From Sphagnum magellanicum (lineage: Eukaryota; Streptophyta; Sphagnopsida; Sphagnales; Sphagnaceae), in the NCBI GenBank assembly GCA_021904315.1, contig CM038907.1, forward strand, positions 16,933,223 through 16,997,222: DNA of 64,000 nucleotides, in the 5' to 3' direction. This document shows positions 20,001 to 53,400 of this stretch, piece after piece; the stretch's first letter is position 1, and every line of letters begins with the position of its first letter. Below the pieces are notes generated by a model, which worked only from the letters and a program-made list of their open reading frames with translations, did not search any database and was not told the DNA's origin. The translations under genes were made by a program, and so were the position numbers.

Positions 20001-20718
20001 AAGAAATGAACGCAGTTGCTGGCTAGAGATGAAAGACGAAGGAACCAGGAACCGTATGGTGAGTAAGAAAAAGAGGAAAAAGCGGAAAAGAAACAGTGGG
20101 TCGAGGGTTCCGTTCTGAGGCTCCACTGTGCATGCAGCCAAGTTCTTTCGGAGATGGCGGTCGTCGTCGTCGTGGCGATGGAGCAAGGAAGTTCGGAAGT
20201 TCTCGCCACGCAGTCGACAACTGCGTCATTGGCGTTCTCAAGTGCGCGCAGTAGAACTCGCGAGCTTCTTTGCTTGCGCACTTGCGCTACCTGTGAATTA
20301 CAACCGAGCGGAGAGCAGTTGGAGCATCTTGGCGGCGCCTGCGTCTACCACTTATCAGGCGGCGTTGTGCAGCAGCATTCGGAGGAGGCGGAGGAATAGT
20401 AGTAGTAGTAGAAGAAGAAGGAGCTGGGTCTCAGTGACGAGCCGCGTACCTATTGGCGAGAGGTGTTGGAGGAGTTGGAGGTTTTGCAGGTGGATTTTGG
20501 AGGATCTTGATCTGTCCACTGAGTAGGTGGTGGTGATGATGTTGTGTATTCAGTTGAGCTGCTGAAGAACCGCTTTGGAGGCGCGGAAGAGTGTGGCGAG
20601 TGTCCGTCGGGCTCTAAACTCCTCCTCCTGTGTATGTTGTTACTGCGGATGCTTTGGTGCTAGACGAGCTCGGGAACTTTGTGATTTTGATACCGGGGTC
20701 GGTCGTTTTGTTGGCACG
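17016..20718. other. Intergenic with copies of a dispersed repeat; promoter of the acidic gene at the right end
   Basis: Partial copies of the roughly 200-bp dispersed repeat lie near 17900-17960 and 18620-18720. The long frame 17894-18400 overlaps the first copy and has no domain. From about 19700 to 20700 the sequence turns GC-rich, consistent with a promoter and 5' untranslated region for the acidic-protein gene. Confidence 0.5.
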
Positions 20719-23432
20719 ATGAAGGGTAATAAACAGTACTTGCAGGGGACGGCGGTAGATGCCAAGCGGCCGGAGTTGTTCAACGGGGAGGGAGATTCTG
20801 AAGAAGAAGAAGAAGAAGAAGAAGAAGAAGACGACGTGGATGACGTTAATGGCCATGGCGGTGTTGTGAATGGCAATAACCACCAAGGCGTGAGGGACTC
20901 AAACGGAATTGTTGTTGAAGAAGAAGAAGAGGAAGAAGAGGATGATGATGATGGCGATGATGATGATAACGACGGTAAAGAAGGCGAACCGGAGGATGAA
21001 GGAGACTATGACGGGGAAGAAAACGAGGAGTTGGACGACGAGGAAGACGAGGATGGCAGCTATCAAGAAGAAGAAGCCTTAGCGATTGCTCGTGACGACA
21101 GAGGTGTCGTGACGACTCGCGCGAACAATATACATGGCTCCGAGGATGACGAGGTTGAAGACGAAGAAGAAGACAATGTGGAGGTGCAGGACGTTGATGA
21201 AGAGAGCGAGGATGCAGAGACCGAGAACGATGAAGAAGAAGAAGAAGAGGCCGTGGGTGATGAGGAAGAGGAAGGTGAAGTCCATCTCTATTCTCTCCTC
21301 ACAGTCCTAGAGAATGTCTATAGGCGTTGCTTTTCAGAAAAAAAACATACTGGTCCTGCGTTTTGTAGAAAGAAAAACATTGGATCGTTGTAGATTTCAA
21401 GTCCTGGTCCATTGATTGTTGCACCAACCTTGTGCATTAGGCCTTAGTTTGAGCCAGATACCATCACAAGTGTGTTCAGTGATAAGACCTTTATTGCCAT
21501 AAGTATCAGCGTTTCCTTTCTGACACCTGCAGTCTTGGTTTTTTTCCGCAGTGCATGTGAGTCGGGCGCCTGTCATCTCGAATGGTGAACTTGATGTTCA
21601 AGAAAATGATGAGAATGAGGAAGACGAGAATGGAGAGCTTGGAGAAGATGAAGATGACATAGCAGACGACGATGACCAGGAGGCGGATGACCATGGTAAT
21701 GATGATGAGGTATGGCAGAAAGACCTCTTCTCTGGCCTCTGCTTTTATCATGGTCTACACCTTGCAAGATCTCATCCAGGTTTTTTGCAGATGGGTCTAT
21801 CACAGAGTGCAGATTGATTCTCGTGAGTGTTAGCCGGCACCATGACCGAGTCTGAGTCTTCCTGTTGCTTCTGGCACATCTGACTGAAATTCCAGGTCTC
21901 AGATTTTGCTACAATTGTTTGCCTGACATTTTAGTAGATTATGATATGTTTCTCAACACTGACAGTTGGGAGCTGAGAAAGTCAGTGGGGGAGTCATGGC
22001 AGCAGCTCATTACTGCTCTCTCCATTGATGAAGCTGGTTGTCTGATACTTTGTGAGTGACACTCATAAGGTTATGATGAGCGTGTACTCATTCTTGTTAG
22101 TTTTGGTGGCACTGGAACTGACATAACTGTTACCTTTGAGCATTATGTGGAGTTTTATTGCTTCATAGATTTGTTTTCCAGTGACTAAAGTTGATCTACT
22201 GCATCCAAGTAGTGCGCCAGTTGTGTGCCATAAGGATATGCTCATGGTGTAGGACACTGCTGCAACGACTACCTTCTATGTAGGCCTCTCTCTAATCATG
22301 CCAGATGTCCTGCTGGTACTCATGGCAAGCTGAAATGAAGCTTACCCACCCTCACAAGATTGTTGCAGCTTGAATGAGAATTTTTTTTCATAAACTTGTG
22401 CTAACCAGCATCATGCAGTTGCCTGCTCTAGAAATGTGACAGAAACTCAGGAGTTGGATTTTCTGCAACTGAATGCCTGGAATTTCAGCCAGATTTATTA
22501 TGTACTTATCTGCACCCATTGTTGGGAGCTGAAGACCTCAGTGAGAAGCCATGGCAGCATGTCATTGTTTGTCATGTTAGTCTTGGTTGTGCAGGAACTG
22601 ACACCAGTGGTTACCTTTATAGTATTATTTTGGAGATTTTCTCTGTAATCTTATTGCAGCTTGAATGAGGATAGGAATGTGTTTTGGTTAGCTATGTCTC
22701 TTAAGTGCTAGACAATGTCATGACCAAGTCATCCTATAGCTTTCAGAAATTTGGTAAAAACTAGAAACTGTGAACAGAAACAGATGTTTGTATACAGCAT
22801 GCCTGGAATTTTGGAAGGATCGTTACCTACTTGTTTACATGCAGCATGGGGAGCTGATGAAGTCATTTGGTAGTCATGCCAATCGCTTCTCATGGCTCTT
22901 CATGATGACATTGATGGTCTGATGCTTTGTGAGCAACTCTCAAAGGTCACAACCACACTCATTGTCTATGTCACCTTCATAGCGGTGTGGAGTTTTTTCT
23001 GCAATCTCAGAGAAATCTGTGTATCAGTATGCATGTGTATACATAATATATATATGTCTGGTGATTCTCTGTAATGGTGATATCTTAGTACATTATGTGT
23101 CTCAATGATGTGAGATCATTGAGTGAGATGCTGTGTAATTGAGGCAGAGTTGCTAGTTGGAAGTGTCAAATTTGACCTCTATGTCTATGTTGCAGGAGGG
23201 TGAAGAGGACCATAGTGCAGAGTATCTGGTGCAATCAATGGACCAGCCAGAAGATGATGAAGGAGCCAGTGACTTTGAACCAGGCGAAGGTGACAATGAG
23301 GGTGAGGAAGATGAGTTTGAAGATGAAGAGGAGGATGTTGTGCATAAGGCTGTTAAGGAACCAGTGTTGTCCAAGGGGAAAAGAAGTAGAGGCGAGGATG
23401 ATGGAAAAGAGGAACGCCCACTTAAACAGTAA
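20719..23432 (+). CDS. Highly acidic Glu/Asp-rich protein, three exons
   Basis: Exons 20719-21274, 21552-21709 and 23196-23432 keep frame and give 316 residues. The protein starts MKGNKQYLQGTAVDAKRPEL. Several Glu/Asp-only blocks follow, then a less biased segment (VHVSRAPVISNGELDVQEND). The C-terminus is better structured, with EDHSAEYLVQSMDQPEDDE, ASDFEPGEGD, and then a basic/acidic tail (KGKRSRGEDDGKEERPLKQ). The C-terminal EYLVQ..EDDE.ASDFEP pattern is what plant databases list as acidic or spermine-binding-like proteins. Molecular function is unknown; such tails often bind histones or basic proteins, but that is inference. An in-frame ATG at 20575 would add 48 residues with a Cys cluster. 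I prefer 20719 because conserved-looking sequence starts there. Intron 2 (21710-23195) holds three copies of the dispersed repeat. Confidence 0.8.
21890..22990 (+). repeat. Three copies of a dispersed ~200-bp repeat inside an intron
   Basis: Copies lie at about 21890-22090, 22432-22640 and 22735-22990. They share, in order, AGAAACTCAGG-like, CCTGGAATTT, a TACTTATCTRCACCCA-like block, GGGAGCTGATGAAGTCAGTG, CATGGCAGC, GATGGTCTGATACTTTGTGAG and a CTCATAAGGTTATGA-like block. Divergence between copies is large (visibly more than 15 percent), so they are old. No open reading frame or clear terminal inverted repeats are visible; a SINE- or MITE-like nature is possible. Confidence 0.75.
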
Positions 23433-33500: not shown

Positions 33501-34857
33501 TCTTCCATCATTAGAATGATCATGAGGTTAGTCATAGTGAGTCAACTTCAGGATGTCGGTCTCATGCCAAAAATATGAAAGAGCTCAAATAGGCAAGTCT
33601 GCCTTGATTTCCACTCTCACTTTGCCTAAGCATCCAATTTGAATTGTCTTCAAGATCACTCTTTCATGAGTGACTCTTTGAGTCCTAGCTTTTGTCTCCT
33701 TTGTTTATAGGCAGATTGATTCTCTGTTCGCTCATTGTGAAGGGCATGATTATTTCTAATGATTTAAAACCCTTGACTAGGCATCCTTTAACATTATGCT
33801 TTACTCATCAATAAGCAAAGTCATACAGGAAATGCTCTCCTGAAGAGATTGAAGGTTTAACTTTAGAAAGATGAATTTAGTCCACCATGTTGGTCCCAGG
33901 GCAAGCTTGAAATCTACTAGTCCTTGGTCCTCCAAACACGTTGCCCTAGCTTAACTTGGCCTAGCTAGATTTAACTTATGAATGATTGCAGATACCATTG
34001 GGCATGGACATGGAAGATGTGATAGTTGTAGAATTTGTATTCATGAAGCTCATTCACACGTAGGTTTCTGTGTGAAATTATCAAATCAACTTGTCTATCC
34101 AATTATTTCCCAGCGAATATTGCAGGTTGTTCTAATCTTAGTCAGTCAAACGGATTTGAAATGAAATCTTCAAATCTTGAATCACCTTCAGACATTTCTT
34201 GTGAGGTCTTTGGTTCCAAATTTGTGTAGATGAAGAAGTTGGATGCAAATCAAGCCCCATCATTAAGGGCCTGCTTACCACCCAAATGCTTTGATTATTA
34301 TGTACATCATTGTAGTGTCCCCTTTGACAAATGTTTCATTTTGTTGGCTTTAATACACATTAATAAACTACTTTTACATTAGATTGGGCCATTTGTCATT
34401 TGTCATATTGGTCCACCTTCATCACCCTTAGTAATTGAATGTCTATTGGGTGGCACTTTTGCACACCACCATTGTTGGGAATTTCCATGGTAATTGTCAC
34501 ATTCTTGATGAATTGATTACTAGAATTGCATGATGTCCTTCCCACCTTGGCATCCTAGCTTAAATATGAGCTCATGTTCACCATGAAATTTTGCATTAAT
34601 TATAATGACTTTTAGCCAGATTGCCATTTATGTTGGATGGTTAGGTTGCAAGTATCCAAAATCCCTTGAAGGTCATGCCATAGGGATGTTGAGAAACTTT
34701 GGCAGGAGTTTTTCTCAGATCCATCACAATGGTGGGATCACTGGTCAGAAAAGGTAATGAGATCGTTTTTTCTTGTAATTCTCTTGCTGATGCAGGAAGT
34801 TAGTGCATGGTCACTTGTTGATGGTTCTGGTAGTTTTGGACATCTGGTCAAAGGCAA
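30548..34857. other. Intergenic; possible promoter at 31.5-32.0 kb
   Basis: Apart from the doubtful exon near 30.9-31.0 kb, no gene was recognised. The 31.3-32.0 kb part is less AT-rich than its surroundings and might be a promoter. The remainder is unremarkable. Confidence 0.4.
30888..31027 (-). CDS. Possible last exon of an unidentified minus-strand gene
   Basis: A frame of about 46 codons reads CEDYGSNVTIPLPEDYLIIP, then SFVSPENAIFAEQPHDKVAK, DLKLIFTKT and a stop. It begins at a pyrimidine-rich stretch that could be a 3' splice site. Its balanced composition looks more like coding sequence than its surroundings. I do not recognise a family, and upstream exons (expected between 31.1 and 32.0 kb) could not be defined. 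It may be spurious. Confidence 0.2.
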
Positions 34858-35700
34858 ATGTCAGGTATCCAGATTTCAAACATAGGAAGACACAGAAGGC
34901 ACTCTGGCTCAACCACAAATGGAAACCTGACTGGGTGGAATCGGAACTGGCTGCATTGCCACCAGGGACTATTACCCACAAAAGCAAGCACCTTTTCCTG
35001 GAATGTGCGGCTTGCAAGATATGTGAAGACAGAGCAACCTCCAAAGACAATGGAACTTTTCCAAAAAATTCAGCAAGAAGGCATGGTTCCAGACAAGTTC
35101 ACTTTTGTGCCAGTGCTCTATGCATGCGCACAAGCACTTGAAGAGGGCAGATGTGTCCATTTGCAGATCATGGAGAGAGGTTTTGAGTCAATTCTTTATG
35201 TAGGAAATAGCCTCATTGACATGTATGCCAAGTGTGGGAACTTTGACAATGCTTTGAAGGTATTTGACAAGATGTTGACACATGATGTGGTTTCTTGGAA
35301 TGTCAAATGTAGGCAAGCAAAGAAGGCATTGGAACTATTTCAACAAATGCAACAGGAAGGATTCGATGCAGACAGGGTTTTCTTAGCAGTTCTAAATGCA
35401 TATGCTATTGAAGTGGCACTTAAAGAAGGCAGACGGATCCACAATCACATCATTCAAAGTGGTTATGAGTCTGATGTTTTTGTGGGTAATAGTCTTGTTG
35501 ACATGTATGCTGAATGTGGGAGCATAGAAGATGCCCAGAGGGTGTTCCATAAGATGCCCCATGTGCAATGTTGTCTCTTGGAGTGCAATGATTTGGGGAC
35601 ATGTGAAATGTAGGCAGGGACAGAAAGCATTGGAACTACATCAACAAATGCAAGTGGAAGGTGTGAAGCCAGAACCTGTCACCTTTATGCCCACCTGATT
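34858..35700 (+). pseudogene. PLS-type pentatricopeptide repeat (PPR) gene remnant
   Basis: About 3-4 PPR motifs are readable: MELFQKIQQEGMVPDKFTFV, VHLQIMERGFESILYVGNSL, IDMYAKCGNFDNALKVFDKM, LELFQQMQQEGFDADRVFLA and VDMYAECGSIEDAQRVFHKM. These are the P/L/S alternations of organelle RNA-binding proteins. Signs of decay: no organelle-targeting start, about six residues missing after DVVSWN, and a frame change near 35570. After that change the next repeat continues in another frame (VVSWSAMIWGHVKC, LELHQQMQVEGVKPEPVTF) before a stop near 35697. PPR genes usually have ten or more motifs, so this is a broken fragment. A dispersed repeat copy follows. The motif style is typical of the expanded fern PPR family, in my judgement. 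Confidence 0.8.
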
Positions 35701-37334: not shown

Positions 37335-38403
37335 ATGAATGTCGTCCAAGAGAAAGCATCGCAGGGGCCGGAACAGAGCCACAGCCGGGAAGAAGAAGGG
37401 CAATCATCGAACAATAATAATGAAGAAGAAGAAGAACAGCAACAACAAGAACGAAGGCATTTTTCAGACTTGTCTCGCACGTTTTCCTTATTTCCAGGAG
37501 ACGAGATTTCGAATGATTTAGGATGGCATCAACAATCTGGTGCACTCGAAACTTTCAATGACACATCACATGTTGCGAAGACCTTGATAATTGACGATGA
37601 AATCTCAAGTCTAGATGCCTCAAGTTCATCTTCGCAACAAGGAGTTGGTAATCAAGCTCTTCTTGTTGCGCATTACGATGTGTCTTCTTCGACGACGGAG
37701 AACACCCAATTTGCTGGGATGTCAAGAGACGCAGAAGACTGGTCGAGTAATGTGCCTTCAAAACCAGCCGCTAAACTAGCGTGCGTGAAACGCAGCGTGC
37801 CGCAACGGCTCACGATTGAGAACCTAACATCTCGTGAAATTTTGATGCGGAGCCCATCTAGTTGTATAGTGGGGAGAACAAGAAGGATGTCCGACCCCGG
37901 GACGCTGGCTGTGAACCTGGATCGCGTAAGCACGTCCATGTACAGCGAGACTCCCACAGGACAGACTCCCCGCTGGGATAGCTGGCAAGAATTCGCAATT
38001 GTGGTACTTGCGCAAGAGAATAAACCCAACTTTGTTTTCATTCAAACCATTCCAGAAACATGTTTCAGCATGTTCTACTACACATTGAAGTCCTTGGCTG
38101 CTTCTACTACGTTTTCACGTGCTGCTTAGTTACTCAAATCTATTGTTTGAAGAGGTACATACATGTCTGTGCACTCAGAAGGGAAAAGACACTTTCTTTG
38201 TAAAATGCAGAATTCGCCGACGACCCCGGCAGGCGTAGAAACTGAGCAGACATCTCAGAAACTGAAAGAATTAATTCGCTATCTCCCCAAATTGCTGCTC
38301 CGGAAAGCACTCTCGGATCCAGGTTGGCCCTCTGGCCGTGTTGCTTAGAAAGTAACTTTCTTCTGCAGCCCAGATTCAACCCATTCTGCCACAGACATTG
38401 CAA
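37335..38403 (+). other. Cyclase N-terminal region: disordered, Glu/Gln-rich, then basic helix
   Basis: Exons 1-3, about residues 1-270. An EEEEEQQQQERR stretch is followed by Ser-rich sequence. An RRMSD site at about residues 183-187 fits the basophilic R-R-x-S pattern. The conserved-looking helix LKELIRYLPKLLLRKALSDP precedes C1, as in other soluble cyclases. Exon 2 ends at 38322 and exon 3 (38374-38403) is only 30 bases long; both are chosen for frame and a CAG acceptor. Confidence 0.6.
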
Positions 38404-41400
38404 GTAATGTAAAAAATACCAGAGGGTTTCTTGGCGTGAACGTTGAAGAGGTTCATGTCTGCATTTCTCGATCCCATTTTGTGCCACGGCTTAGAAGGAT
38501 TCACGGTTCTCTGTTTAGACATCCTGCTCAGGAGCTAATGCAGAGAGTGATGGTAAATTGTCCTTGCCATTATCCATAGATATAGGTGAAGATCTCACAC
38601 GTTGCGACAATCACAATCCTTATATCACACTCCGTTCTGTTGTATGTGGTTGAGGTATTTCAAGTATCACTGGAATAGTTATTGGTTGCCACCTTACAAA
38701 AATCTGCGGATATTATCCTTCGTGCAACCTCACTGTTGTCTTTATACAGTTTTAAGCTCCTCCCACAATACAGAATTCATAGTAGCTTTGTCTAAAATTT
38801 GACAATTTCTGAACAACCAATCTTCATCTCTGATCATTGCAGATACTGTGGCTACACAACCAGCGATGGATGTGTTTCAAGCAGCTGTACTTATCGCTGA
38901 TATAACTGGATTCACACCACTTACTGAGCGTGCCTTGACATCAAAACGTGGATCAGAGCTTGTGGAAGAACTCACTGTTACTATGAACAATTACTTCGAT
39001 GAGGTTTGCCTTCAATTCTTCGTAAAACACTTATGCCCTTCTAACTGCAATAATGCTTTTGAAGTGAACTCCTGTTGTCTGTACATATGAATTCATGACC
39101 AAAATACCCGCCCCATTATCCCATCTAGTGTCCACGACATACTGAGATCACATCAAAAGTTTCAGGGTTGTGTTTTTAGTAGTCCTTCTGAGTTGTACAT
39201 GGAAGACTGTACCTCTCTGTGCCTAACACAATGGTTTTGATTTGTTGACTTTTTCCCAACCTACCACAGACTATCAGATCCTTTTTGGATACAGAAGGTG
39301 CAATTGCCACATGGTGGCATTTCTCCTGTTCGCTGCCACCTTTTTTCTTTGTAGCTCTGTGTTGCAGTTGATTCCTTCAATTGGGGCCTCAGAAGAATTG
39401 AAATACACTTTATTTGTACTCTCAAAGCTTTGGTCATGCTCTTCCTTGTAGGGAGAAGAAATTATCTCATCTCTATCAGCTTGCTGCAGTTGCTTGCTAA
39501 CTCAGCTCCTAAAAAGTGTCATCTGGTTGTAGGCCATTGAACTGGTTTTGAACTATGGTGGTGACATCACAAAGGTCAAGACCTCATCCTCTCTCGTACC
39601 AGTTGTTGCTAAAAGCTATAAGAAACATCAGAGATCTTTGTAAATTGTATGCCTTGCAAATCTAGGTGATTAGTATTTTTTGTTGTTCCAACACATGCTC
39701 ATCAATTCTCAAGTAAATTGTTCCAAACTTCAAAGGGCTTTCAATTTTGGACAGTTTGCTGGTGACTCCATGATTGTGTGCTTCCCTGTTGACATAGCAA
39801 GCAATGAGGTGATGTTCACTCACCAATAAATGGCCTTTAACGTCCGTATGGACTGACTACATTTAATCTGAATGTAGGTTTGACCTAGATGTTTGCTTGT
39901 AAACTATCATGTTGCTATTACATTCTCATTTTCACAGGGAGCTATATATCAGGGTTAGCATAGTAATCCAGCATTAGAATGAACAACATGCTCTTGTTTT
40001 GGATATACAATGGTCCTTGTGGGCAATTTTGTTGCTCAACATCTAACTATGCCTGTCACTATTCTTGTTTGTGTTCTCTGTGCATTCTAGAAAGCAAAGA
40101 GATGTCCCTCTTCACTAATCATAATCAGCTGCTTGATGGCTTATTGCTATCATCCCTATTGACAAATCTGATGCTCAGATTTATGCATATGGTGCTTTTT
40201 TGGACTATGTTTTGTTTTCAGAGTCAATCAAAGTGTGCTCTCCGTGCTGCTGCATGTGGTTTTGATCTGGTCTCCAATCTTGGTGCTTACACTCCCCAGG
40301 CATGCTTTCTATAGTTGAATTTCTGACTATTACTTAATCAATTGTGACAGCAACTGGGTCAAGGCAATCATGTAAGTTCAATTAGCAGCCATGTCTATTT
40401 CCTTCATGTTGAGCTCTACCATTGAGGACTTATGTAGCTACTTTGCAATCAAATCAAAACCAATGCCACCTATTACACAGCATATCTCCACTCCAGAAAT
40501 GAATGTCTCTAGAAATATCTACGTCTGAAGGCTTTTTGATTCTAACAGTATTTTCCCTTGCAAAGAATGGTTAAGAATCCAGGCCTCTCCCTTACCTTCA
40601 TGCAATGTCAATGACAATTGGCATTACTGGAACATGGGTTCTGCTTACCACTACCAAACTGTTGCAGCTAGGTGGCTATGGTCACACTTCAAACAAATGC
40701 AACAATCAGGAAGAAGAGGATTGCTCACCAAGGGCTTCAACCAGTTCCACAAGAATGAAGGGCTCCTTTGATTCTGTGCATGTCTTGGTAGCAGACGGGT
40801 TGGTGCTTAATCGTGTGGTGTTAAGCAGAATGCTGGGTAAACTCAACTGCAAGGTAAGTCTGATGTTTTAGTCCTATATTGCTTATCCCAAAAACATCAC
40901 AATAGCCAAGCTTTGGGATAATATCCTTGAAATCACTCTCCACTGCAAAAATAGACGAATGTGCAGATAGACAGTTTTCAATTTTTAGAGGCAGGAAACA
41001 AAGATTTGAAAGTGGACTAATCCTGCATCCAACTGGAAACATCTGTGCACCTTGTTACGTTGTACATTGCTCCTCTCATGTATAAGAAAGAGGTGACATA
41101 TTGCAAATGGCAGCAAGTTACAAGCATCCCATGAGTGTTGTAGAGGGGTTGGCCACATGATCCCCTTACAAAGTAGTCCTGGGGTGTAGTCTTTCTAGAG
41201 AGCATGATATTGATTACTACTGTAGCCAAAACCAGGCTGCCTATGTTTATAGGGGTATATCTTGGTCATCTGCTTTTCCGGTGGGGAAAATACAGGCTAG
41301 ATTTGTTGTACTTGGATACAAAAAGGAGACTTCAAAGAATGAGAGCTAGTTCATTACTTACGTATAGTAAGAAACCTAGTCTTTTATGGTGAAGAGGCAC

Positions 41401-44400
41401 CATAAACTATGCCCTCATCAATCTCATTCTTGCATTATGTAAGAGTCCTTGTTTGCTAGAGACACCTCAAAGAGTGCCAGGCCAAAGAGCCACACAACTT
41501 AAACAGAGAGAACCACTAAATCAGGGGCAATCTCACCTGTGTGTTACAGGACCTGTGTAAGTTACATCTGTGAAGATGGAAGCTGAATCTGATGTGGAGA
41601 ATTAGAATGCCACAGGTAGTGCTTGCTGCAAATGGAAGGGATGCTGTGGCAGCACATGGCAAGCAGACATTCCAGCTGATATTTATGGATGTAAACATCC
41701 CCATCATGGATGGCTTTGAGGCAACCCGTCAGATTCGACAAAATCCTGTGTGGCCTGGTGAGAAGGATGTACCATCCCTGGAAACTTCTGAATCTAGGTC
41801 CTATAATGAAATTTTTTCATACCCTTTTGGCAGCAGATGCTGCAGTTATCCTCAATCATATATTATACAAAGATAGTTCTTATAAGTCTTAACAAAACTG
41901 ATGGACAAGTGAGCTCTCAATACATTCTCTAACTTAGTTTTCTAATCTGAATCATCATAGATGATCTGGTCTACCTACGCAAAAAATGATGTGGAATTTG
42001 TGACAAATTCACTGCACAGATATGTCCTCATGTGCAGACCGCCTCCAAAAGGTCAAAGTGTGGAACTGGGGAGAAATTTCTATTTGATCAGAAGATCCAT
42101 CTCCCAATCTTTATCACCAATCCAGTATTTAGTTTGAAGTCGCACTCTTCTTACACATAGCAAGCAAGAAGCAGCATGTTGTTAGTTCCAGAAAGTAGTA
42201 CTGTCTCAGTCTATAGTCCAGATGAATCCATCTTCTGTGTGAGGCATGTGAACACTCTACTTATGCTCTTGATAAACAAGTTCAACAGAGGTGCTGCGCT
42301 TTGAATATTGTTATTAAGTTCCACTGGTGCTGATTGAGACCTTTTCTAGGATGCTAGAACCGATGTAGGAATTTCCAGCTGGTTATGCAAGATTGTGGTG
42401 AATAGTGTGTTATTACATATGATGAGTGGTGTGAACAAGAGAAATGACAAGAAGAAATTCCAAGGAGGGCTGTTGTTTAGAACCTGTAGACCATACAGAT
42501 CACTGCATGTCCAGACCTCTAATTCATTGAGTGTCAAAGAGGTTGAAACTCAAAAATGTGAGGAAGAATCCAAAACCATCAGTAGCGCATCTTTTGTTGT
42601 ACTAAAGCCCTGGACAAGTTTTTCCAAATTGTATTTCACTTTTTAAGTGCTGAAAGAAGCCTCCTGTCTATGGTATGTGGATAAATGTCATCCCTTTGCA
42701 GCTGTAATGAAATCAATAACCTGGTGCCTTTGTCTGGGTGTTTCTCTTGAGGCCAAGTTCAGACAGGCAAACCAATCATCATTGGGGTACGTACCATTAC
42801 ACACTGACTTTAGAGGGCTTGTAAAATTCAAGTCAGCTTTATTGTACAGAGCATGACCAGAAATTGAAGGGTTTGATGCCATTGTCAATTGAGTGTTGCT
42901 TGCAAGTCTGGCTGGTCTCCTTTTAGTTCTCACTGGATTCACTCTCTAAGGCCCATAAAGACCTCACAATTAATTGCAGTTATTCCTAGCTGATTCTTTC
43001 TGCAAATTGACATCTGAGCTCAATTATCCATGAGCTTTTTCCACTACAAGGGTGTGTCTAACTCAGTTCTAGAAATGCATGTAATGCCTGGTAGGTCTGT
43101 GGAAGCTACAATGACGAGCTCAAGAAGTCTTCTATGGCATCAGGAATGGATGATTTGCTGATAAAGCCCCTCACTATGACACAACTGGTCAACATTCTGC
43201 AAACATATACCGAGCATAGTCAACAGGTTTCATCTGTTCCCCATGATAGTAATGGTGCAGTCAAGAACACTTCAAGCAAGCAGCGATCTTCCTGCCAGAG
43301 AACATTGATGCACAAGGCGGTCCTCCACCACACCTCTGAGTTGGATTCCTGCAAACTAGCTATACCAACAGAGACTCCCCTTACTCTTACACTGAAAGTC
43401 ATGATTGGCATGGGAGAGGTACATCCATTCATTTGACATTTTATTCTGGATGCTGGATTTGATGTTGAGTCAGCATAGATTAATCCCAGTGATGGAATTG
43501 CACATCCTTGATGCAGTGAAGACAATGATGAAAGCGGGTCATTCTGTAACCTGACAGGTGTGCACTTTGAGTGTTGGAGGTGGAGTGCAAGTTCCAACTG
43601 GACAGCCACGTTGGGAGTTTTTCATGGCTGATATCCCTTCACCTCTTGGAACCACTACCCACAATCCTATGGACCAACTACGTTGTTGTGAGGAGCTGGC
43701 AAAGTCTGGCAAGGAGAACAAACCTTATGAGTTGAACTTTGTTTTGGATAATTATTTCACCAAGAAAGTTTCAGTTTGTCTCCCTTTGGACATTGTGCAT
43801 TTTCTTGTCAGATCTTACTGATTGCCTTCATTTATTTGTCCAAACATGACATGTGCTTCCATAAAGGCCAAACATCCAACCTAAACATGTTTGTATTTGA
43901 AACTGCAGGGGATGTCATTTTGTCTCCAGAGGCATGGACCCATATTTTAAAGGAGTGTGATGGTGAGGTGTTAAAGGGGGGCTTTGTGCGGCTTGGTCAC
44001 ATATTTGGCAATATCAGTGTTCCTCTTTCTCAGCGCAGCTGGTGTAATATTGAAGACCAACTAGTCCCTAAAATTGTGAACAACTTGAAACGGTAGGATG
44101 TCAACCCATTTCAGTCAATGTAACAGATGCAGGTAGTAGGCAGAGTTTGTAATTCAAGCATGATTTCCTAATATCAAAGAGGTCTGATTGTCATTGTCTC
44201 TGCTGGAATTTCTTTCCCTTAGTAGTCAGCAGAGAGACAATCTCAGGTACAGGTTTGGAATAGCCTAATGTAGATACATGGTCATATATTTACATCGAGC
44301 ATTTGGACCCAACTCAAAACTGATACACAGCAGCTGGTTGATGGTGAAATGGAGAGAAAAGGCTTTTGTATATGAGACCATTGGCTATGTAGAAAGAGGG

Positions 44401-47400
44401 ATAGAAGCATAGCCAACTAAGAGGGTGTTGCTTTCTACTTTGCTTAGGTATTTACAAGAAGTGTTGAGAAGCAACATAGGTTCTAGCCCCATGAGTGTGA
44501 TACAAGCAGAAATGCGGCATGTTACCTGCATTTTCTTGGGGCTTCCTTCTTTGTCTTCATATAAGGAGTGTCGCTTGTCCCACCTTCAGTGTGTGCAGAC
44601 TGCCATGCTATCAGTACAGCAACCTCTCCGTCAGTATGAGGGGGCACTTGCACAGTTTCGAATGGATGAAAAAGGTAAGGGGCCCATTGCTTTTTATGAT
44701 GACTCTGTAATGCTTTTTTCTTGCAGTGAGACTGAGTACACACCAGAAAAGAACAACAAATTGAGCGTTACTAATGTGTGGCTTAGGAGACGCTGGTCCC
44801 TATGTCTAACATTTCCTAAGAATTTGCAGACTGGTGTATGGCAGGTTACCTAATGATTTGTGCATTTGGGCTTCCGGGAAATCTACATGAAGATGATCCA
44901 AAAAGAGGAGTTCAAACAGCATTGGCTATCAGGGAAAACCTTAAGGAGCAAGGGCAAGATAGTGCAATGGGTGTTACAACTGGCAAACTTCTTTGCACTC
45001 TTGTAGGTGGCAAGAAGCGTTGTGAATACACAGTGTTTGGGGACACCATCAATTTGAGTGCTCGCCTCATGATGAAGGCTAAGAATGAGGTACAAAGAGA
45101 TAGTATTTGATTAGACAACCCAGGGGAGATCATGTACTTCAGCAGTAAAATTCATCACAAGATTAGTATGCCATTTGACATGTAATATGTGGGATGTGAT
45201 GGACAAAAGATACTCTTGCTGTTAATTGCAGCCATAGCCTTGCAACCTGCTAACCATACATCCTCTGTCCAGTTTGGATGTATGGATCGGACTTGCAGGA
45301 ATAGCATCAAGTTTGGGAGAGGGGGCTACTGGGGGGAGGAAAGAGAATGGTGACCTCAGTTTCCTGGACTGCTCAACTTCATAGACGAGAGCTTACCTTA
45401 ACACATATTACCAGTTTGGCCTGTTCTTTAAACATTTTAGGACTGCCCATCACAAGATGAGAGTATATTTAACCCATTCTGTCCTAGCATCCAGACCTCC
45501 CCTTTACTGCCCAACCACTAGCTCTTACAGCAGTTTCAAGCTCCAGTGAACACATCAATGTATCTCAAAGTATATCATCCCCCCATCAGATGCCCATCCC
45601 TACAGTAGTGGTCTTGTCCACTAGTACTGGGATTGGTTGGTCTATCCATGGTTACCTTTTGTGATATATCCACATGAACCTGGTTGATGAAAACACTGAA
45701 GAGCAGTGCAGAAAAATCTTCCATCTTACAATCTTGGGCAGGGTTTTGACATAATCTAATAAATTGAATTGTGACACAGGCTTGAGAGATAGAATGTGAC
45801 TACTTGTGTTATAATAAAAAATGTACTTATTGATGAATTTATCTCTGTGCCACTGTTGACATCTTCCAAGGTTTGTGTATCTTTGTGGCATTCCTAACTG
45901 GTAAGAAGTGCATTTTTGAGCTGCAGATACTTGCAGACATGGAGACCTACAAAGCTACCTCAAACTTGTTCAACTACCTGGCACTCCCACCAATGACACT
46001 GAAGGGGAAAAAGAGAGCTACTTATGTCTACTGTGTGTTAAATGCCACACCACAGGCCAATATTGCCAACCACATACCTCCTTCAGAGGATGCCAAGCAT
46101 GCTCCAGAGGATCTTTTGATTGGAAGGGAGGTGGAGTACCAAATATTCATTAACACAATACACACTTTTCTCAAGCAATTTTTAGCTCTTTCACCTGTCA
46201 GAGCCATCAGTGGTAGGACAATTGTTGAAACTTTGTCTGCTGCAAGTGAGGATAAAGCAAAAATATCTGAGGAGTTTTCAGTGGTGCAAGACATGGTTGA
46301 TGCCAGAGAGAAAGAATTTCAATATAGTAGCAGGCTCCCTGATCTCGAACCTGAAACCCACCAACTTAATGTGGAACCCTGTGGAATGATTCTGTTGATA
46401 GGGCATGCTGGAATAGGGAAATCAAAGCTGTTACAGTCGGTCATTAGTAGACTTAAAAAGGAACAATCACCTGTGCAAATTCTCCTAAGTGCTAGTGATC
46501 CTGAACATAACAATGTGTTGGTGTTTGGTCCTTGGGCAAGGCTTGTGTGTGATCTCTTGTGCTTTGACCCAAGGTCAAGTCCAGAGGAGAGGGGAACCAT
46601 TGTGGCAAAGCATCTGCATGCTTCTTCAATGCAACATGCCCACTTGTTGAAGGATATCCTCAAGATCAAAATCAAGGTACCCAACTCTCTGCTGCACAGA
46701 ATGTCCTTTTAGTTGAATCTCTCTCATGTGGCAATTATGCAAATTGCTCATTAAACATGCATCATATTCTGTTTTACAATTCTTACTGGCCTTTGAGAAG
46801 GGCACTTGACACCAGTTTTCATCATGGATTCTCTAAGGCCACCATCCTGTGTCCTTATCATTAATGCTGCATCTTGTGATGGCAACAAAATTTACTTGGA
46901 AACATATTGCTCATCATATCAACAATCAGGTATTGGTGATGACATTCATGCAGAAGCCTAGTAAGACAACCAGTCAAATTCCATCAGCCAACAAAGGGAA
47001 GATGCTCAAGCGCTGGCAGAGTGACCCAACTCAGTCAAGTGGAAACAGCTCCATTAGCAAGAAGGTGTTGTGTGTGCTTCAACTCCCATTGCACATGTTT
47101 CTGGTATTGTTGAGAAATTCTACATTACTGTAGGGATCATATTCTTCTGGATTTGACAGAAATACCACCTTCTTCACCCTGCTATTTCTTGAGCTACAAA
47201 GGATTCTCTCACACTCGCATATCCCCTCCATTCTGCCCAGTGCTACATTACAACCCCAAATAGCATGTGTATGCAGTGACCATGGCTGACATTGTAGAAG
47301 GCCAATACGCATATGTAATATATTTCAACCTTGTCTCTTCTCCATGTTCCAGGGTGGGAGAGGACAACGCATGTCATTCATGTCACATCTTGCTGCCCAA

Positions 47401-50400
47401 GGGGCACAATTTCTTTCTACTCTAACCCCCAGGAAAAGCTTTGGCTTGACCAGGAAAAGCTTTGAAGCCAAAAGAACTTCGAATGTTGGATCTGGTTCTC
47501 CAATCTTAAGTGAAACAAAGCTGGCTGCAGTCTTAAGTTCTGGTGAACAAACTGGTATATTTCTGCACAGTTGACAAGCTTCAGGACATGTATGGTGCAT
47601 AATTTACCATGAAATTTCTAGCCTTAGGTGCATTCAGTAGGATAAGCTCATTTGGAAAGTGAAAGCTGAAAACTTCCATAGATAAACCATTTGGATGTGA
47701 GTTTCCTTATCTTGCAGTCACAGATTTGAGAGCTGATGTGGGTGGCAATTCTAGAAGGAATCTGATTGAGACTCAAAAGCAGAGTAGAGACATCAAGCAA
47801 CTCGATGACAAAAAGAGGGCATCAGCAGATGTCCGTGTGCAAAGAATTGGGCAGTTAATTCTGGAGCTGCTACTGTCACTTGTATTGAGGCCTTGCATTA
47901 TCTTTATGGAAGATGCTCAAGTATCCTCTTTAACAATAACTCTTCCAACCCTGTACTTGTGAGATGAGATGATGAGAGAGAAAGTGTTGAAGACACCAAT
48001 ATAAAGGTTTGGATGGTTCTGATGATCTCCCTTGATAAAGACCTGGCAGCTTCTGGACAAGCCATCCTGGGGTGTGCTGAAGGGTGTCAAAGATGTGCAA
48101 GGGGGTGGGATATTGGTGGTGGCTGCATGTCGCCCCTTTGGGTGCCATGCCCCAAGAGAGTACACAGCACTTCTTCAATCTGATACTACTGTGGTTATTC
48201 ATCTCAGGCAAGGACAGAAATCTATGAACTTCAAGAAGTTAGAGGCTCAGATGAGTTTCAGGTGGTCTATGTAAGCATGGTGGTGAAAATTGCTCCACCA
48301 AAGTTCTGATGGGTCATCTTTTGGGACTTTTTAGAGACTCTGATAATGTTCTGACATGAGTTTCCTCCTGTGCAAGGACAGGGAGCTGAGTGAAACAGCC
48401 ACAGAGGAGCTGGTTCAGCAAAAGATTGGTAACTTGCAACAAGCACCACTGAAGATTCCAAAAGAGATATTTGATGTCATTTTCAATCGGACCCATGTAT
48501 GTCCTCTTGCAGTCCAATTGCACCTTGGGAACATTTGCAGAGCAATTGTGTGACTGAAGCAACACAAATCATACTCTTTTTTTATATCTAGTATGTGAGC
48601 CAATAGGGGCCATGATAAGTCATTGTTTTGCTGACAATGACAACTGAAAATCCATATGCTGGTTTCCATTTCCAATTTCAGTCGTATGACACCAAATGTG
48701 GATGTCTATGAGTTAGTCATCTCTGAGAGAAATTATTAGAAGATGCTGAAGATCACTCTATCCATATTCCTGCAGGGTCATCCACTATTTGCTGAACAGA
48801 TGGCAAGTGCACTGGTTGATATATACATGAAATCTAGTGAAGCACAAGAAGGGGAGAACAGACCATCAAACATCACCCTCAATCTCCACCAATTCAGCTT
48901 CTCACATTCTATGGAAGCTCTTATTGCATCACGTGTTGACCTTCTGGAGCCCAAGCAAGCTTTGACTCTGAAGGTTGAATGATCTCTGAACTCATCTGGT
49001 AGAAACATTGACTTCCAAACAATTCACTAAACAGGTTCTCAATGTACAGGGGAATCAAAGCTGATTTGTCTTGAAGTCTTTGACAGTAGTTTAGTGCAGT
49101 ACCATCAATTGTTACATGAAAAACTCGATCTTTGACACATCTGTGATCCAGGTGGCAAGTGTCATTGGCCTCAACTTTTCAGTGGACCTACTTCTCAGTA
49201 TTCTTAACGAACAGATGCAGAGGTAAGATGATGTCCCCTTTTATGTATATTAAACTGCAGGTATCCTCCAATTCTTTGCAGCCAATGGCACCCACATCAC
49301 ACCCAACAGATTGCAAGCAAAGTGCATTCTTTTCTGTGACTAAGACGAATGAACACTTGAAATTCATCATGGTGAGAGAAAATAGGGAGAAGAGAGTCAT
49401 CCTGTGTGCAGACAGATGTAAGGAGATAGAGATGGGAACTTGTAGGAACTTTTCTTCTGAAGTAGGGGTGGGCAGAAGGCAGGGAGGATGCATGGTCATT
49501 AAGCAAAGAACGGCTGCTGGTGGCTTTGCAGAGCCTTGACAAGCTGAACTTCCTCACACACTGGCCGACTGACCCTGAAGGATTTTATTCCTTCTCTAAC
49601 TCAGTATGACATTATTTTCAACCTCTGATTGCATTTCTTGCTCAGTGATGCAATAATAAAGAGGTACTCAGGTTTGAATAGAGTTGACATCTATCTCACA
49701 TAGTCATTGACTCCTGAATGATCATCTCTTGATTAGTTCTATTTTTTATTTTGTTCATTCCAATTGTTGTCATTGCCTAAATGTCCCAGGTTGATATGCT
49801 GTGGCAGGTGATCAAAGATGTGATATATGAAATGCTTCCATTTAAACAGAGGCGTCACATCCATGCCCACATTGCAAGGGAGCTCCTCAATCAAGGCACC
49901 AGTGGGATGCAATGTGTGAGTATTGCACATCACTACACTATGGCTTGCAAGGATGTGGAAGAAATGGAAATTGGTCTTGCCACCATTGCCATCGACCTTT
50001 GGGAGACAGCAGTGTGTTGAATCTCAACTTTTCTTTGTAATTTGGCTTAACATTTGATGTTTTTTACAGCCTCTGCAGATGGAGAGTAGTAGTATTGTAT
50101 ATACTTTATAGAACATAACTTTCAGCAATGTTCCTGGAATACTAGGTCTATGAATGTGCTTAGTCACACATCTATGGTTGGTGGTCAAGTTCATATGGGA
50201 AAATACAAAGATGCTATTCTTCATTTATGAAAGGATACCCTCTGATTTTCCATTGTTGGATGATGGTCTGCCATGTTCTGGGATCAATTTGAGATACATT
50301 CAGTTTACAATCCAAATGTGTAGATTTTCTGATCCTTAAAATTAGAAAAAGCTCAACGGAATGGATTTTACACCCCTTGAGTAATGTTGGTTCTGAAAAA

Positions 50401-53400
50401 AAGTATTGACTACCTTCTATATGGAAGTGAAGTCCTCATTAGTGTAGTCTGTTCAAATTTTGGGCATCCAATTAAAGGAAATACTCTTCCTCTGGGAATT
50501 CCTCTTCAGATGAGTCGGTTACTGAAAGTTGAAGTGAATAATCTAGAATCTTGCCCTGAAAGACTTTGATGTACTTCTGACGACAGGCTTCAAGTGCACT
50601 TTTCAACTTTGGACAGTACAGAAGTGCCATCCAGTACTATAAGAATGCTCTTTCTCTTGGAACCATTGTTCAGGAGCACATCAACCTGATGCGGCTTGCC
50701 ACCTGGCATCAACATCTTGCAAGAGCTTATGTTGCACTGGGGGACATCAACAACAGTTGGCAGCACAATCTGCTGGCTCTTGAAATAATTGGAGAGCACC
50801 TTCCAGCCAATTTCTCAGTTCAGTGGTACAGCACATTTCCATATGTGGATTGTGTATCATTTTTCAAACTGACATTTGGAGTCTTCAAGCTTTGCAAAAG
50901 AGGCGATATTTGTGCTGGTTTTGGGGTTGGGAAGGCCTTCAGATGTGGAGCATTGTCACAGCTTGCAACTCTTGCTATCCTAAGGGTAATGTATGAGTTT
51001 TTCCCTGAAAGTATCTTTGTGTCCTTCATAGCTGCATGCATACTGCCATTATCTAGATGTACCATGGGACAAACATGTAAGAATGGGATCATCAAATTGC
51101 TAACTCCGATGCAACAACCTTGTGGTGCAATCAACTTACAGGAGGACCTTCAAGCAGCAAAGTATTTGAGCCATCGGTGCTTATCCATGGCTCTAAGTGC
51201 AGGCAAAGAACTGCCATTAGAAGTGGCCAGAGCACACTCTGTGCTGGCTCTGGTGGCTGGTAATAGACATGTAGCCAAGCGCCACTTGAGAGTATGTTTG
51301 GAAATGCTGACAGAGCAAGCTGAGCTTCTCCGAGTCAAGCTGAGCCAAGCTGGAGATATCCATCATAACCTTTCATGTGTCTACCTGTTTCATGGTAATG
51401 TGTACTGAATCCAGATTGGAATTGTTGAAGGGGTGAAAATTAGAATAAAGAGAGAAACCAACCATTTAAGTTTGCAACGTAAGGTTCTAGAGAAAGCAAA
51501 GACAAATTAGAGAAGAAATGTAAGTTACACTTATTGTGTTGCAGGTGAATGGTATCTAGCTACATCTCATGCAGTGGAGGCAATGAGAGCCTATAAGGTA
51601 TGCCAAGGACACAAGGAATTCGACTTGTGCCAGTGCTTGAAGGCTGTTAGCCAGTTGTATCAGGTGCGGGGCTCACAGAATTTCTCAAGTTAAAGCTCAT
51701 TTATGGACTGGTTTGAAAAGGTCATTGAACTTGATTTTGGACTTCATACCTCTAGGATGTAGTTTAAAATGTTCAATCCCTGATTATCACTGCTGTCTCT
51801 CTGATGAGACTTAGCTGTGAACTGGACATCAGTCTCATCTATGATTTCCACAGGGTGAATTGGAAGAGTGCCACAAGAAAGGCTCCACACTACTTGCATC
51901 TTGTAAAGATGACCCTCAGCTGCAAGTGTGGGCACTTTTCTTGGTGGTAGTGAGCTTGAATGGTATGGAACGCTACAAAGAGGCTGCAGAAGCTTTGGCC
52001 CAACTCCAAATGAGTGACTGCCCATTTTGTACATTGGCATTGCAGGTGGGTATAAAACTCTCACTTGTAGAATTTAGGAGAGGTTCTGGATAGGAAAGCA
52101 CTAGATGGTCTGTTTGCTTAATGTTTTGACAGCTGAGAGGTTGTTAATTAGACATGTAACACACCAAATATGATACATCACAATGAAAGAAGCACCAACA
52201 CAAGTTGTAAAGGAATCAACACATAAAGTATTTCTATGCTGTATTGTGGGGTCTGGTCACTGTAATTCAGGGCTTGGTTCTTTTCTAATGCTTTAGTGAG
52301 AGACTGGCCCATTAGTGGAGAGAGTATGCTCTACTTCATGACTTCATTTGATGAAAACTCACACAATCCAACTTCTAGTAAGTATGCCCATTTGTCCCGA
52401 TTCATAGCGTTCCTTGGCTTTGCAAGATGTGAAGTGATGGTGGCTTGGAAATTTCAGAGCTTTCCCAAACCAACAAATCATTCTCGCATTATTCTGTTTT
52501 ACTGTTTATGATAGTGAAGGAAACATTGTCTATCACAGTAGGAAGCAAGCAAAGATCTGAATGTTGGTGGTATCAGGTGAAAGCTGTAGGGTGGACAGCT
52601 TCCATGCATACAGAGTTAAGAGAAAAGGTGATAAAGGAAGCTTCCACATTGGTGCCACAGCTTATCAGCATCACCCCTCTGACTCTGATGTTTCCATTGG
52701 CTTTAGCTTCAGCCATTGAACTGTTCCTTCCAGAGCACCCCAACAGCTTTTGTCCTCAAGATAGAGAGAGAGAACAAGTTGTGGAGCTTCTCCTCAATCA
52801 CTTGAAAATTGTGTCCACTCGAATTGGTGAAACACTGCACTCTACCTCTTCATCCTCTCTCTTCTTGCATTTTCAGGCTGTATGTTCCTTCTCCCTGTAT
52901 TGTGATTGTCTAGTAGCATTTGTGACTCTGGCATTTCTATTGAATCAGAAATCGCTTTGTGCTTCAGCTTCCCATGTCTCATGGTTGACAAGCTAACATT
53001 TGGTTGAGCTGCACAAAAAAACAGAAATTGCAAGGGTGTATTACAAACTATACAAAGCTCGCCTCACATATATGAGAGGGAACATAAACGTGGCAATTGT
53101 TCAATTCAAGGCAGCAACCATATCTGCTTCTAAGTTTACAATGAGGTACGCAATTCCTCAATATCTTTCAATTCTAGTGATTTTCTCATTTTTCACTTAT
53201 TGAAAAGTTTGTGTGGACCAAACCATATTTGAGAACCTGGAGAGTAGAACATATGATGAGATTATATTGTTTTCAGCTTCTTGCAAACTGATATAAAACC
53301 CGGTGAAACACTGAAATCCAAAGGCTTGCAGAAAAGATGGCACACCCATGGATAGAAGAGTGCAACCAGGCAGTTGCTATGTCAAAAGTAACACCAGCTT

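Follow-up and report, generated by a model that had tools for sequence, protein, structure and literature searches.

A receiver domain nested in the first catalytic domain of a predicted ADCY10-like tandem cyclase of the moss Sphagnum magellanicum

A 64,000-nucleotide stretch of Sphagnum magellanicum DNA (assembly GCA_021904315.1, contig CM038907.1, positions 16,933,223 to 16,997,222; hereafter the window) contains, on the + strand at 38211–46676, a gene whose spliced model of 14 exons and 892 residues is free of stops. The gene is predicted to encode an ADCY10-like tandem cyclase with two catalytic domains (C1 and C2), in which a whole receiver domain lies within a loop of C1. The frame runs through the beginning of C1, an insert of 209 residues that includes the receiver, the rest of C1, C2, and a P-loop, in that order. 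The sequence confirms this nested arrangement at the DNA level, and within the plasmid relatives and the literature that we searched it is new. We propose, with moderate confidence in the reading as a whole, that the tethered receiver docks on a groove of C1 and thereby sets the closure between C1 and C2.

The insert corresponds to residues 150–358 of the model and is located between helix α3 (KCALRAAACGFDL) and strand β4 (LTLTLK) of C1. An earlier note on this DNA had placed a receiver inside C1 of such a cyclase, within an insert of about 210 residues. The measured length is close to that estimate, a single spliced frame on the + strand accommodates all the motifs named in the note, and the nesting is backed by sequence alignment. 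In a Pfam scan, Response_reg (PF00072) matches residues 188–300 (E 3.1e-18, 66.4 bits compared to a cut-off of 30.2) and covers profile positions 1–110 of 111. The linkers that connect the receiver to the catalytic fold, ∼36 and ∼58 residues long, are mostly polar. Both domains meet within exon E9, which the note had correctly described as unbroken (43095–43418): it lies inside an open frame (43095–43436) that spans the second receiver half and continues to the C1 strand LTLTLKVMIGMGE. The strand that resumes after the insert is β4, however, and not the C1 hairpin as had been thought, since the metal-binding hairpin (FAGDS) precedes the insert. The chance that one receiver match would land in the C1 gap on the correct strand is ∼2e-4, an estimate based on at least 52 receiver matches, a lower bound from an exon-by-exon search, in the 439 Mb genome (31 contigs) to which the window belongs.

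Exons were selected by homology and by AG/GT splice sites (AG/GC in two cases) with matching phases (Table 1). The frame breaks into 43095 from the best upstream donor, 41757, so that a 20-nt micro-exon (42767–42786) is needed, which also completes the receiver. The earlier exon set included E9 but overlooked this micro-exon. Among 3260 stop-free candidates that keep the frame, either joins or additional exons, scored with a small profile of six receivers and with a hand-made score for splice sites, it ranks first on the sum of the two, 5.8 above the next candidate, and fourth on profile bits alone. Response_reg scores 69.5 bits with the micro-exon; two joins that omit it (41768/43095 and 41797/43106) give 61.8 or 63.1 bits and were rejected for these lower Pfam scores and for poor splice scores. 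With the micro-exon, the stretch from the KP motif onward aligns without gaps to L016, a receiver of the same genome. The junction 40371/40668 suggested previously relies on a frame-neutral 21-nt exon (40351–40371, +), which is unsupported, as its acceptor AG is lost and 4 of its 21 bases are changed in a second copy of this region on another contig, C12. The simpler join 40299/40668, with a GC donor, is preferred. Apparent GC donors are present in two introns, at 40299 (identical in the C12 copy) and at 43708. A C2 exon start at 44830 was dropped in favor of 44845, 15 nt from this in-frame acceptor; the C2 match to ADCY10 is 59.0 bits for the former and 68.7 bits for the latter, which gives a gapless match at the hairpin and has a slightly lower acceptor percentile (89th versus 92nd). 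The Pfam scan (897-residue version of the model), plasmid searches, homologue scans, and earlier ADCY10 comparisons were carried out with the start at 44830.

The C12 segment (L003 ∼8160 to L004 ∼2340) is a broken copy of ∼37.0–41.6 kb in the window, to which it is about 90% identical, and is disrupted by stops and frame breaks. C1 exons come first in it, then E7, the initial exon of the receiver; similarity stops before E8, and the stretch with E1b is missing. The same C1-then-receiver order in this copy indicates that the order is older than the copy and that no contig mis-join is involved up to E7, while beyond E7 the link is made by E9, where receiver and C1 are joined in one exon. The intron positions are predicted from genomic sequence, which leaves some room for an artefact in which the receiver exons come from another gene or from a mis-joined contig. 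Such an artefact is very improbable given E9, the C12 copy, and a frame with consistent phases through 14 exons. Divergence from the copy is lower in exons E2–E5 plus E7 (38 of 519 aligned sites) than in five introns (231 of 2190; Fisher p 0.027); this count omits the possible N-terminal exon (68/629) and the stretch 38350–38842 (68/465).

Of the solved relatives, ADCY10 matches best by sequence, with 68.7 bits for C2 and 38.5 bits for C1 after excision of the receiver. Equivalents of eight of nine functional residues of human soluble adenylyl cyclase (sAC), with roles as given in PMC12867704 and PMC12250328, are kept. These include the metal-binding Asp pair of C1 (Asp47 in ADITGF and Asp99 in FAGDS), Lys144, and, in C2, Asn412 and Arg416 (aligned at TINLSARL). 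The bicarbonate residues Lys95 and Arg176 also have equivalents in the sequence alignment. In the adenine-recognising pair, Thr405 is kept, while Lys334 is replaced by Gln. Adenylyl specificity is therefore not established, and we term the gene ADCY10-like. The protein has tandem class III domains, of which C2 scores above the Guanylate_cyc cut-off of Pfam (35.4 bits). The only PF00211 match found in the genome is the C2 exon of this gene; since this exon-by-exon search skipped even the C1 exons of the same gene, other cyclases may exist. CAPE, a cyclase reported from another moss, did not appear in this search either, possibly because exons were searched apart.

The insertion point was mapped to the α3–β4 loop of C1 by comparison with ADCY10 and four bacterial tandem cyclases. 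We searched 72,556 plasmid records with tblastn. A query from which the receiver had been excised (477 residues) matched 35 records, 11 of them over at least 80% of its length and each in one piece, whereas the nested query (641 residues, from the start of C1) matched 569 records, none with at least 80% coverage (best among those listed, 58%). Six of the 35 records were aligned: two have only one cyclase domain, and four have a C1 with a short α3–β4 loop. These four, Microvirga L045 and Ensifer L046, L047 and L049, share the C1-C2-P-loop order with the moss gene (26–27% identity over 92–99% of the excised query for L045–L047, 25% over 75% for L049), but have no receiver at that point. A single-protein scan, which finds close relatives only, gave one locus among genome contigs, a receiver-only match in a Bacillota metagenome-assembled genome, and no match among viral contigs. 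The statement in the earlier note that no cyclase with an internal receiver has been described agrees with the open-licence literature, where none was found by titles and abstract openings among the matches listed.

The length of the α3–β4 loop varies by a few residues across the four bacterial relatives. A surface loop of this kind could have tolerated the insertion of a receiver that is now a degenerate passenger, one that leaves catalysis unaffected and serves only as a spacer or for protein binding at its surface. The loss of two switch residues (see below) and the lack of significant constraint on E7 alone are consistent with this explanation. We nevertheless consider it doubtful, as a full 110-position receiver with its KP motif is present and the reading frame is intact over four exons.

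The nested receiver keeps the phospho-accepting Asp (FMDVNIP) and the conserved Lys (LLIKPL). Alignment to another receiver from this genome, gapless over the stretch concerned, shows DG as the acidic pair, with Gly in place of the second Asp, and Cys in place of the switch Thr/Ser at the end of β4, given the modelled micro-exon and the start of E9. Three own-genome receivers are 26–30% identical to it over the whole domain, and for the first 80 residues local matches of 34–39% identity are seen in the five best. The nearest own-genome relatives include L016 and L017–L019, with the pattern VALTAN...LKPIS; we take these to resemble the receivers of ethylene receptors. An ethylene- or cytokinin-type origin of the nested receiver is plausible from these similarities.

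The presence of the Asp and the Lys, the completeness of the receiver by Pfam, and the many receiver exons in the genome would suit a phospho-gated cyclase, in which a histidine phosphorelay phosphorylates the nested Asp and C1 is switched as the face of the receiver changes. The Gly and the Cys, however, argue against an ordinary phospho-switch, the linkers are long, and a partner kinase or histidine-containing phosphotransfer (HPt) protein is hypothetical; this alternative thus appears unlikely. The proposal of the earlier note that phosphorylation could move the C1 hairpin directly is weakened by the same two substitutions and by the linkers.

We favor, by analogy, a tethered regulator at the C1 groove over a phospho-switch pulling on a strand. 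The linker lengths argue against rigid pulling and for docking. The catalytic core would fold while two flexible tethers let the receiver loop out of it, and the receiver would bind back to the α2/α3 groove of C1, pseudo-symmetric to the Gsα site on C2, where it would set C1-C2 closure. Occupancy of the groove may be altered mainly by a partner protein, with an HPt protein or a kinase receiver as candidates, and phosphorylation is a weaker possibility. The C-terminal linker is predicted to lead straight into β4, which bears the Lys144 equivalent. In membrane cyclases, the docking site of Gsα on C2 lies between the α1–α2 and α3–β4 loops, and upon closure β4 shifts at its N-terminal end toward the active site (PMC2576301). 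Gαi has been modelled, guided by known mutants, into the C1 α2/α3 groove (PMC10996109; see also PMC7563791).

Several observations weigh against the docked-receiver proposal or the gene model beneath it. Docking in the groove is an analogy, and the micro-exon and both GC donors are predicted from sequence. C1 without the receiver scores 17.1 bits, below the Pfam cut-off of 21.9, and its assignment thus rests on the ADCY10 and bacterial alignments. With Gln at the Lys334 position, nucleotide choice and activity are uncertain. E7 taken alone differs from the C12 copy at 14 of 186 sites, which is not significantly different from the introns (p 0.21). Every one of the 14 acceptors exceeds the regional median for AG sites, yet the weakest belong to E7, E8b and E9, at the 73rd, 80th and 81st percentile, whereas the remaining eleven reach at least the 89th. 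These three fall on receiver exons, which leaves room for skipping, and E7+E8+E8b, a cassette of 348 nt with phase 0 on either side, could be skipped without a change of frame. Alternative splicing may accordingly produce two enzymes, one with the full receiver and one in which it is reduced or absent. The donor of E5 is GC, a rarer type of splice donor, which would also fit. On the other hand, E9 unites half of the receiver with a C1 strand, such that simple skipping would leave half a receiver, and the E9-internal acceptor nearest to β4 (43374), which would excise the remainder, is poor (13th percentile). We regard a two-enzyme arrangement as improbable.

Table 1. Predicted exons and flanking segments of the ADCY10-like gene (window coordinates).
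Feature	Position	Strand	Basis and remarks
Possible N-terminal exon	37335..38003	+	ATG 37335; Ser/Glu/Gln rich; open frame; end uncertain (five phase-0 donors listed, 38003 among them)
E1b, segment ahead of C1, ELIRYLPKLLLRKALSDP	38211..38322	+	AG/GT sites, phase; aligns to pre-C1 segment of bacterial tandem cyclases L045-L047
E2, C1 β1 with metal Asp (ADITGF)	38843..39003	+	ADCY10 alignment
E3, GGDITK, Lys equivalent to human sAC Lys95	39533..39574	+	ADCY10 alignment
E4, FAGDSMIV, C1 hairpin with second metal Asp	39755..39808	+	ADCY10 alignment
E5, C1 helix α3, GC donor	40222..40299	+	ADCY10 alignment; donor bases identical in C12 copy
E7, polar linker and receiver β1-α1 (VHVLVADGLVLNR)	40668..40853	+	Pfam; stop-free in C12 copy
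E8, receiver β2-α3 with phospho-Asp (FMDVNIPIMDG)	41616..41757	+	Pfam
E8b, micro-exon, 20 nt, receiver β4 (KPIIIG)	42767..42786	+	Profile and splice score; Pfam gain 6.4-7.7 bits
E9, receiver α4-α5 with Lys (LLIKPL), C-terminal linker, C1 β4 (LTLTLK, Lys144 equivalent)	43095..43418	+	One open frame; Pfam; ADCY10 alignment
E10, C1 remainder, Arg equivalent to human Arg176, GC donor	43558..43708	+	ADCY10 alignment
E11, DVILSPEAW and C1-C2 linker	43909..44092	+	ADCY10 alignment
E12, C2 start; Gln at human sAC Lys334 position	44448..44674	+	ADCY10 alignment
E13, C2 core, EYTVFGDTINLSARL (Thr405, Asn412, Arg416 equivalents)	44845..45089	+	ADCY10 alignment; alternative start 44830
E14, C2 end and P-loop GHAGIGKS	45927..46676	+	AAA_16 20.6 bits, below cut-off 32.6
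Remainder of gene, roughly modelled, partly weakly TPR-like	46930..53000	+	Crude exon chain; TPR_8 19.1 bits, below cut-off 25.7

The possible N-terminal frame has a single Pfam match, below its cut-off, and its divergence from the C12 copy is intron-like, so its coding status is uncertain. Downstream of C2, a P-loop motif is seen, and the AAA_16 and TPR matches are below their cut-offs. Elsewhere in the window are an open frame with PPR repeats (34834–35613; PPR 76.4 bits), a tandem array of about ten 78-bp units (1750–2556), and a long open frame with an extremely high content of Glu and Asp (20566–21393).

Mammalian ADCY10 has the tandem C1-C2 arrangement and the eight residue equivalents in common with the moss gene, but has no receiver in C1, and human Lys334 contrasts with Gln in the moss gene. 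A receiver and a class III cyclase also occur in one chain in cyanobacterial CyaC and Dictyostelium AcrA, where the receivers sit outside the cyclase domain. This layout is not matched by the moss gene, whose receiver is within C1. AcrA is named as an adenylate cyclase in PMC4758236. CAPE is, like the moss gene, a class III cyclase of non-seed plants; it is described from basal plants with motile sperm, with an N-terminal phosphodiesterase and a C-terminal cyclase (PMC8115329). No phosphodiesterase Pfam match was found in the 897-residue model, the N-terminal frame, and three downstream stretches that cover part of the downstream region. Marchantia Mapoly0178s0022 is a putative N-terminal cyclase with no phosphodiesterase, reported to lack several catalytic residues (PMC5159850), and Mp7g08500 is a second Marchantia adenylyl cyclase-like sequence (PMC8115329). 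These two non-CAPE sequences are possible orthologues of the moss gene; the passages describing them do not mention a receiver, and the two may be one gene.

A bolder reading would be a land-plant cyclase that the histidine phosphorelay gates from inside its catalytic fold, in which an HPt protein or a hormone-receptor kinase binds or phosphorylates the receiver and switches cyclic AMP (cAMP) synthesis, besides bicarbonate-site residues common with the animal sperm cyclase; this wider scenario is speculative and unlikely. How land plants signal through cAMP is poorly understood. If true, a receiver in the core of a plant cyclase would provide a direct, testable link from two-component signalling to cAMP. 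The receiver also sits at the type of site used by G proteins in animal membrane cyclases, and would thus be a case of allosteric control that arose independently at the same position of the fold.

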